DNA of 33,839 bases from assembly GCA_947857085.1 (NCBI GenBank), contig CANUDF010000014.1, positions 1-33,839 of the forward strand. The letters are read 5' to 3'. Positions within the stretch are counted from its first letter, which is position 1. Every line of letters begins with the position of its first letter. Of the stretch, positions 16,907-21,928 are shown piece after piece. The notes under the pieces are model-generated. The model saw only the letters and a list, made by a program, of their open reading frames with translations, had not been told where the DNA came from and made no database searches. A program made the translations under genes and the position numbers. The DNA is from Candidatus Gastranaerophilales bacterium. Lineage in GTDB: Bacteria > Cyanobacteriota > Vampirovibrionia > Gastranaerophilales > Gastranaerophilaceae.

Positions 16907-17630
16907 AATCCATTGTCCAGCCGTTCGCTTGCAAATAAGGGATAAACCATAACGCACACCTGCTAGTCGTACCTTCACCTTCATCGGAAAGACAACTCTC
17001 CTTAAAAGATTCAAAATCTGTGTTTGTAAATGAAACAGCCTCACTAGTGTCTGAATTTACCAATAATGAATAAAAATCATAACCCGCAATATTAGGCTTA
17101 TTTTTACCATTTACATCAATGCTGACCTGAACGGAATTGTTAGAACTTGTAAACGGCTTGAGGCATATAGCAGCTCCTGTATTTATAACTGCACAGGTAA
17201 CTAAAGTGCCTGAAATCATAGAAGTTGCACTCATTTGTCTATTTTTTTGAATATTTAAATAATTCTCTGCCAAACAATTCTTTATAGAATTTTTGTTACT
17301 GCCGTCTTCATCAGGCTTACAAAAAAGTACGGCTTTAAAATATTTTTTTAAGAATGCTTCAACACCTTCATCTGTTGATAACGACGAATCACTTAAATCA
17401 TCAACTTCTTCATCTAACATTACATTTGAAAATGCATTAAACAGCTGATTATACGCTTTTTGAATTTGCGCCACATAAACTTTCTTCTTATAATTTGAGA
17501 CCAAATTTGGTAATGTCAATGTCGCCACCACACCTATAATTCCTAATGTGATTAGTGTTTCTGCAAGGGTAAATCCTTTTCTATGAGAGGAGTTTTTTAA
17601 CGCCCCCCCCCTTTTCATGCCCTTTTTCAT
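16902..17630 (-). CDS. Prepilin-like protein 1, frame open through a G9 tract
   Basis: Type II secretion/type IV pilin-like protein of 242 residues. The leader MKKGMKRGGALKNSSHRKG is cut by prepilin peptidase before FTLAETLITLGIIGVVATLTLPN, with the essential Glu at +5 and a long hydrophobic helix. The globular part has paired Cys and ends in DVNGKNKPNIAGYDFYSLL and a Trp-rich tail, resembling pseudopilins of Gastranaerophilales-like genomes. The ATG has AAAGGAG nine bases upstream and a good promoter. Codons 7-10 (Arg-Gly-Gly-Ala) are encoded by nine consecutive G (C9 on the + strand, 17603-17611). In this sequence the tract length keeps the frame; gain or loss of one base would stop the protein. 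Surface or periplasmic fibre role is inferred. Confidence 0.85.
   Translation of the reverse strand: MKKGMKRGGALKNSSHRKGFTLAETLITLGIIGVVATLTLPNLVSNYKKKVYVAQIQKAYNQLFNAFSNVMLDEEVDDLSDSSLSTDEGVEAFLKKYFKAVLFCKPDEDGSNKNSIKNCLAENYLNIQKNRQMSATSMISGTLVTCAVINTGAAICLKPFTSSNNSVQVSIDVNGKNKPNIAGYDFYSLLVNSDTSEAVSFTNTDFESFKESCLSDEGEGTTSRCALWFIPYLQANGWTMDY
17603..17611 (-). repeat. Homopolymeric G9 tract inside prepilin 1 leader
   Basis: Nine C on the + strand, nine G in the coding sense, 19-28 bases into the gene and upstream of the prepilin cleavage site. A tract of this length is out of character for the AT-rich surroundings and matches the tract in prepilin 2 in length and relative position. Such tracts are classic slipped-strand sites. 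Confidence 0.9.
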
Positions 17631-17668
17631 AGTAAATAACTCCTTTCTTCATTATTATTACAAATATT

Positions 17669-21162: not shown

Positions 21163-21188
21163 AAAGAGAGAATAGGAGGATTAATATC

Positions 21189-21928
21189 ATGAAAACGATT
21201 ACTACAAAAGCGGTTCAGGCAGTCACCCCCCCCCGAGTTATACATCTGGTTTAGTTTTTAGCAGATTTAAAGGTTTTACATTAGCAGAGGTCTTGATTAC
21301 CTTAGCTATTATCGGGATAGTTGCAGCATTAACCATACCAGTATTAATTAACAACTATCAAAAAAGAGAAACCATTGTTCGTTTCAAAAAAAGTTATTCT
21401 TTAATGAACCAAGCATTAAAAATGGCTCAAGTTGAAAATGGAGATATAAACACATGGTTAGACGCGGAAACATATGGAATTGAAAATTGGGGAGCAACAT
21501 ATATTGAACCTTATCTAAAAATTGCAAAAAAATGCACGACACATAACGAATGTGGTTACAAGAGTAAAAGCCCCTGGACCAGTGTTGACGGAACACTTGA
21601 TTATTTTAATGTAACAGATACAACCCGAGTAACTTATATGTTAAATGATGGTTCTGTAATAGTAGTTAAAGCATATGATTTAGGTAGTACTCCTGATACG
21701 AATACTATTACCAAAAACATAATTATAGATTTGAATGGACCATCCGGTCCCAATGTAGTCGGTAAAGATGTTTTTTCCTTTAACAGAACTGAAAAAGGTT
21801 TGGAAGACTATTGCAGAGAACAAAGCGAGCAATACATAAAAAATAACTGTAATGCTTCTGCCGGAAGATGCTGTTCCACAAAACTTATAAAAGATGGTTG
21901 GGAAATAAAAGATGATTACCCTTGGTAA
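21189..21928 (+). CDS. Prepilin-like protein 2, frame broken at a C9 tract (probable phase-OFF)
   Basis: From ATG 21189, with strong promoter and AGGAGG, translation runs MKTITTKAVQAVTPPRVIHLV and stops at 21252. One base out of frame the sequence encodes the whole prepilin: SYTSGLVFSRFKG, then FTLAEVLITLAIIGIVAALTIP (Glu at +5) and a globular domain with several Cys and DLNGPSGPNVVGKDVFSFN, the same motif as prepilin 1. The prepilin frame has no ATG, GTG or TTG between its upstream stop (21182) and the signature; the first TTG (21293) is inside the pilin helix. One extra C in the C9 tract (21226-21234) would join ATG and prepilin into 246 residues with a 29-residue leader, close to prepilin 1 (242). 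Phase variation, -1 frameshifting or a sequencing error could explain it. Confidence 0.75.
21226..21234 (+). repeat. Homopolymeric C9 tract inside prepilin 2 leader
   Basis: Nine C directly after GTCA, 38-46 bases into the gene and just before the cleavage site region. The downstream prepilin is in the frame that requires ten (or seven) C. Same length as the tract of prepilin 1. Confidence 0.9.

Follow-up and report, generated by a model that had tools for sequence, protein, structure and literature searches.

Poly-G and poly-C tracts in prepilin leaders point to phase variation of a large pilin repertoire in Gastranaerophilales

INTRODUCTION

In the opa genes of Neisseria, a family of about 11 gene copies, CTCTT repeats lie in the region coding for the leader peptide (PMC3960869; PMC3745409). 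The system described here is similar in that a multi-gene family of surface proteins has, in each copy, a putative independent switch made of a repeat in the part coding for a cleaved leader; however, the opa repeat is a pentamer, its leader is a Sec signal peptide and its products are outer-membrane beta-barrels, whereas here the repeats are homopolymers, the leader is of class III and about 80 genes are concerned. Neisseria pilC has a homopolymeric G/C tract (9-20) in its reading frame that gates a pilus-related protein (PMC5953494), and an in-frame G/C homopolymer with such a target is common to both systems. PilC, though, is a pilus-associated protein with two copies and no pilin, whereas the tracts reported here would gate the filament subunits. 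The Campylobacter poly-G phasome, with 5-81 genes per strain (PMC6321876), also consists of poly-G/C tracts spread over an AT-rich genome, with a length peak at G9/G10 and surface targets. Those targets are mainly surface modifiers (capsule, lipooligosaccharide), while about 86% of the tracts found here serve prepilins alone, via a small set of leader cassettes. Finally, Neisseria pilE/pilS likewise draws pilin diversity out of many gene copies, but does so by recombination into one expressed locus; in the present case each copy has start signals and a switch of its own.

Gastranaerophilales are gut bacteria, non-photosynthetic relatives of cyanobacteria. In the open-access literature, a scope that leaves out most subscription papers and preprints, we found no paper on phase variation in this order; for Melainabacteria there was one, which deals with flagellins. 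An earlier note on the DNA analyzed here had taken a contingency tract in a prepilin leader to be undescribed in Melainabacteria, and the open-access literature yielded no description of one. While the class of mechanism is already known, its scale, its target (the prepilins themselves) and the lineage are new, and the class III leader and the shared cassettes also set it apart from the systems above.

RESULTS

The starting point was a stretch of 33,839 nucleotides (the window) with two prepilin genes on opposite strands (Table 1). G/C runs of at least 7 occur in it only twice, each 9 long and each in a prepilin leader; overlapping G7 matches number 6, against 0.67 expected, and none of 100 shuffles reached that number. 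Both genes encode a class III signal, with a hydrophilic leader, F1, E5 and a hydrophobic stretch, and score above the cut-off for PF07963; in the type IV prepilin test TIGR02532 is also above its cut-off. Prepilin 1 begins ATG AAA AAG GGC ATG AAA AGG GGG GGG GCG, and its 242-aa open reading frame reads MKKGMKRGGALKNSSHRKG^FTLAET..., so that the G9 tract falls in codons 7-10 with the frame kept, just as the earlier note had read it. The interval singled out there, 17603-17630, does contain the tract, although its extent is that of the tract plus the gene start. The note had also reported a second tract in the other prepilin of the window, and this too is present, as C9, with the gene out of frame. 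With C10 or C7 (one base more or two fewer) prepilin 2 would read MKTITTKAVQAV...FTLAEVLI in an open frame.

Table 1. Positions of the features of the two prepilin genes in the window
Feature	Position	Strand	Remark
Prepilin 1 gene, 242 aa	16902..17630	-	ON at assembled tract length; N_methyl PF07963 24.8 bits
Prepilin 1 Shine-Dalgarno AAGGAG	17640..17645	-	9 nt before ATG 17630; from sequence
G9 contingency tract, leader codons 7-10 of prepilin 1	17603..17611	-	ON if n divisible by 3 (G9, G12)
Prepilin 1 leader, 19 aa, last residue Gly, then FTLAE cleavage motif	17574..17630	-	
Mature pilin 1, 223 aa	16905..17573	-	Predicted: long N-terminal helix and beta-rich globular domain
Prepilin 2 Shine-Dalgarno AGGAGG	21174..21179	+	From sequence
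Prepilin 2 gene, start ATG 21189	21189..21928	+	OFF at assembled tract length
C9 contingency tract in leader of prepilin 2	21226..21234	+	
TAG terminating the C9 (OFF) frame of prepilin 2	21252..21254	+	From sequence
Mature pilin 2, 217 aa	21275..21925	+	N_methyl above cut-off

The pilin models have a pilin-like look in the predicted structures, with a long N-terminal helix followed by a beta-rich domain. Comparison of these models with PDB structures gave no significant match; weak C-type-lectin-like structure matches were confined to a 347-aa pilin class. A search for orthologs of prepilin 1 within the genus returned nothing above 46% identity. Its syntenic site adjoins dapA/secD, where the nearest species (L135-L140) are without a prepilin and more distant species have other tract-bearing prepilins, with tracts of 10-11 there versus 9 here.

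The window pair is part of a tract system that extends over the genome. The assembly from which the window comes (G000) is a short-read MAG of 1.75 Mb in 88 contigs, with about 35% GC, and it contains 95 G/C tracts of at least 8; the prepilin N_methyl motif is matched 99 times, mostly above the Pfam cut-off. At least 69 of the 95 tracts, of which 56 read G and 13 read C in the coding sense, precede a prepilin motif by 10-257 bp, a zone that makes up ~1.5% of the genome (enrichment, P = 5e-103). Another 12 tracts belong to leader cassettes of an identical type that a contig end truncates; with the 70 complete cassettes, prepilin leaders hold 82 of 95 tracts. A scan for tract enrichment in prepilin leaders had been proposed as a check, and the outcome is strongly positive: what was noticed as a pair of genes extends to about 80, and the design recurs in further species of this genus as well as in a second genus of the family. 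The lengths of G/C runs follow a sharply bimodal distribution: 194 kb not selected for tracts contain 267, 28, 5, 1, 0 and 2 runs of 4, 5, 6, 7, 8 and 9, respectively. Among prepilins that have no tract, some have their start at the end of a contig, and others carry leaders of the ordinary short kind. The genome also encodes the pilus machinery, with one prepilin peptidase and four T2SSE-type ATPases.

By reading of the sequences themselves, most of the remaining 13 tracts that have a readable gene fall in genes of a surface type. Read in the same way, the non-prepilin tract genes include a 1191-aa adhesin-like repeat protein and a large membrane protein. L044 (C7) and L075 (C45) carry tracts in a cluster for sugar/glycan biosynthesis; one of these tracts occurs at two contig ends, with G10 at one and G11 at the other. 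Such clusters are typical contingency targets. A LicD-like gene in L079 (C49) has a C9 tract in its late part, at ~5282, and an aminotransferase-like gene comes next. As in phase-variable loci, the targets are surface structures: prepilin cassettes for the most part, with most of the other readable genes being glycan, LicD-like or adhesin-like.

A complete cassette consists of a Shine-Dalgarno sequence, a start codon, 15-41 nt, the tract and an open frame up to the cleavage motif. In the genome of the window, a good Shine-Dalgarno sequence and start were found in 65 of 70 complete cassettes, all tract positions lie 15-41 nt past the start codon, and in 70 of 70 a single open frame connects the tract with the cleavage motif. 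Over five genome sets, the frame is open to the prepilin motif for 194 of 257 tracts and passes through a stop for only 8; shuffling of 182 leader segments predicts about 38 open. In 124 of 185 genes, both OFF frames meet a stop no more than 10 codons past the tract; applied within mature pilin genes, this check gave 33 of 170. In two cassette families, GGGGGGGGGCGTCTCCTCTAAGTAG and GGGGGGGGGGCAGTAGCTTAACC, the stops of both off frames come from conserved bases downstream of the tract. The tracts are homopolymers of at least 8 G/C inside a reading frame, as in phase-variable loci, and their length modulo 3 would set whether the product is full-length or truncated.

Initiation at an alternative start downstream of the tract was considered and rejected: a strong one exists in only 7 of 70 genes, and any other in-frame start with a Shine-Dalgarno sequence after the tract is absent in 60 of 70. 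In a minority of leaders (L040, L065, L088 and L097), a GGAGG-ATG beside the cleavage motif persists downstream of the tract, which suggests that a switch cassette may have been put upstream of an ordinary prepilin start.

The claim that the leader tolerates added residues was borne out, with nearly any in-frame sequence accepted and the part after the tract spanning 10-540 nt. Within leaders there are apparent repeat insertions and duplicate copies of FTLAE, and the frame is kept throughout. Such inserts and freedom of length would be expected of a peptide that is cut off. Recurring in-frame inserts, e.g., HPEAKPKDLKRFFAGAQND and FLVPYCLSNLVSSKK, were seen in the leaders of L297-L316 (G008) and L277-L295 (G002) and resemble a collection of dispersed repeats. 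Positions 145-190 of the L142 leader carry a tandem duplication of the tract-bearing segment (G8 and G10), which the related L148 is without. The argument that coding for Gly in one gene and Pro in the other speaks against a need of the protein is sound, as G and C cassettes drive near-identical pilins. The ON-state leader has a median length of 51 aa in the whole set. Class III signal peptides have a reported length of 6-26 aa, which is not a strict requirement (PMC4471445); the 19-aa leader of prepilin 1 falls inside this range, but ON leaders would often exceed it, and cleavage of such long leaders is putative.

In the genome of the window, the tract lengths are G8 in 4, G9 in 36, G10 in 21, G11 in 8 and G15 in 1. 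G9 thus makes up 51% and G10 30% of tracts; the corresponding values for phase-variable poly-G in Campylobacter are 52-53% and 26-30% (PMC6321876). Tract length varies among paralogs (8-15) and among species, and at two contig breaks one-base differences occur between identical flanks: G10/G11 (flanks of 44 and 30 nt) and G11/G12 (43 and 7 nt). The breaks could reflect the behavior of an assembler when reads carry both lengths, although stutter could also produce them. Inside a leader family the length is fairly uniform (C9 in 12 of 13), and in one pair of related assemblies the two orthologous tracts, L142 and L148, are of equal length. With the tracts as assembled, only 28 of the 185 genes, which come from several species, are in the ON state (~15%), a share below one third (P = 3e-8).

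The uniformity inside families could be explained by programmed recoding, in which the ribosome or RNA polymerase slips on the run, so that apparently OFF genes are expressed at a set rate while the tract keeps a fixed length. The direction of the required change also seems to favor it, for exactly one added base (+1) would restore the frame of 45 of 56 OFF genes in the genome of the window, as it would for the majority of those in the same genus. However, the shift is mostly the opposite one in G024, where 22 OFF genes need -1 and 1 needs +1, so a fixed direction of recoding does not fit, and the GANTHxxY leader family is also one in which -1 is mostly needed. In addition, ON genes are present in each well-sampled genome, early stops are usual in both OFF frames, and tracts between identical flanks differ by one base. 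We consider recoding unlikely, and -1 frameshifting as a general mechanism was rejected on account of G024. Loss of mismatch repair as the cause of slippage was rejected as well: mutS is matched in 59 of 59 genomes and is full length in G000, so slippage would not stem from its loss.

We then compared leaders with pilin bodies. Among pilins of ~340 aa, the closest pairs have up to 190 N-terminal residues that are 92-100% identical, while the last 150 are widely different. Leader cassettes do not track the pilin body and differ in 120 of 160 close, near-identical pairs, so modules have been exchanged. This shuffling, together with the finding that about 85% of genes are OFF, is what one would expect of a silent reservoir, in which most tract genes are permanently OFF, act as recombination donors to a few expressed pilins and have a tract that keeps them silent. 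Yet OFF genes retain a start, a Shine-Dalgarno sequence and an open leader and pilin frame, all needless for a purely silent donor, and a single base would turn most of them ON. A purely silent reservoir is very unlikely because these expression signals and frames are retained; moreover, recombination and slippage are compatible and can act together.

It is highly improbable that the lengths are a sequencing or assembly artefact and the genes normally in frame, for although the assembly is a short-read MAG in which many contigs terminate at or close to tracts, errors cannot place runs of at least 9 in prepilin leaders in particular or generate open leader frames with stops in the off frames, the correction required differs between genera (+1 in one, -1 in another), and Illumina is reported to be accurate on poly-G of this length in Campylobacter (PMC6321876).

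The variable ends of the pilins may point to a second layer of variation. In seven of the ~340-aa pilins the C-terminal codons are mostly NNC, with C as third base in 47-68% of them, compared with 12-19% in the body of the gene. When five related regions are compared, columns showing at least three bases number 14, 10 and 3 by codon position, and 26 of these 27 contain A. This NNC pattern, with changes where a template would have A, is one that diversity-generating retroelements leave, and it was seen in a subset of the tract pilins to which the window genes do not belong. Variable C-termini rich in NNC were seen in L048, L052, L084, L039, L034, L040 and L082 (also in L054, L327, L333 and L334). 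The genome has a single reverse transcriptase (L317; G000:C65:588-1727), with the motif LPIGNLTSQ, which by sequence is of the right type to be a candidate partner of these pilins; its best solved relative is 8ub7 (E = 4.7e-43), which we take to be the enzyme of the Bordetella phage diversity-generating retroelement. Retroelements of that type resemble the present case in having a C-terminal variable region, the expected substitution pattern and one 8ub7-like reverse transcriptase. Unlike there, the template repeat, expected as an A-rich version of GTCTGGTCTGGTGAGGAG...CAGGCGGTTTGC, was not found on C65 or on the other stretches examined, which cover part of the genome, and this layer is separate from the tract. 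A diversity-generating retroelement probably acts on the pilin C-termini of the subset, and not directly on the two window pilins. There is about an even chance that two mutators are stacked, with leader poly-G slippage selecting among ~80 pilins and the retroelement rewriting the C-terminal, probably lectin-like domain of some of them, on top of recombination of leader cassettes.

The identical switch design occurs in G002 and G008, which are of the same genus, and in G024, from another genus of the family, in which the cleavage motif is FTMAE; it is present too in Candidatus Gastranaerophilales MAGs retrieved by SecD. In 36 genomes of the family, the tract count follows the prepilin count (rho = 0.88, P = 2e-12). 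Outside the family, the two counts are uncorrelated in 23 genomes, one of which has 89 prepilins and 2 tracts. G029 (L235-L251) is an exception within the family: there, the G10 tract belongs to a short ORF (MADTEIKNGQ...) that precedes the prepilins by 400-800 nt and is out of frame with them.

DISCUSSION

In our judgment, these tracts, which sit in a leader that is cleaved off, very probably serve the phase variation of a very large pilin repertoire by slipped-strand mispairing. The observations on which the proposal builds are the anatomy of the cassettes, their enrichment, frame gating, the stops in the OFF frames, conservation across species, and a prepilin peptidase with pilus ATPases. 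Points that weigh against it are the near-uniform lengths inside leader families, the equal lengths of L142 and L148, the presence of mutS, the arrangement in G029 and the many ON leaders that would surpass the reported class III range. In the proposed mechanism, about 80 poly-G or poly-C contingency tracts would each act between the start codon and the cleavage site of a separate prepilin gene. Slipped-strand mispairing during replication would alter a tract by one base; one length in three would join the start codon to the pilin frame, while the other two would reach early stops. The state of each pilin, ON or OFF, would be heritable and independent of the others, and at any moment the majority would be OFF. 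Prepilin peptidase would then cut the leader, and because it removes the leader, neither the Gly or Pro run nor the leader inserts would ever reach the filament.

An independent ON/OFF switch for each pilin was proposed from the window alone. Its placement in the leader and the gating of the frame stand, and switching within a population may be fast and reversible; from the tract lengths, the parallel with Campylobacter and the contig breaks, we infer a rate and a reversibility of slippage compatible with this. At the cell surface, switching may affect adhesion or serve escape from phage or from immunity.

If switching is true, the repertoire would be among the largest single-family phase-variable repertoires known to us, in an uncultured, widespread gut lineage. 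The number of genes would be near the maximum of 81 for a whole Campylobacter phasome, yet directed almost wholly at pilins. Consensus MAGs are then predicted to mis-annotate most prepilin genes as broken. Phase variation of this kind would explain why about 100 prepilin genes are retained in these genomes, and it would be a clear case of a design rule in which a mutable tract is placed in a peptide that is cut off.
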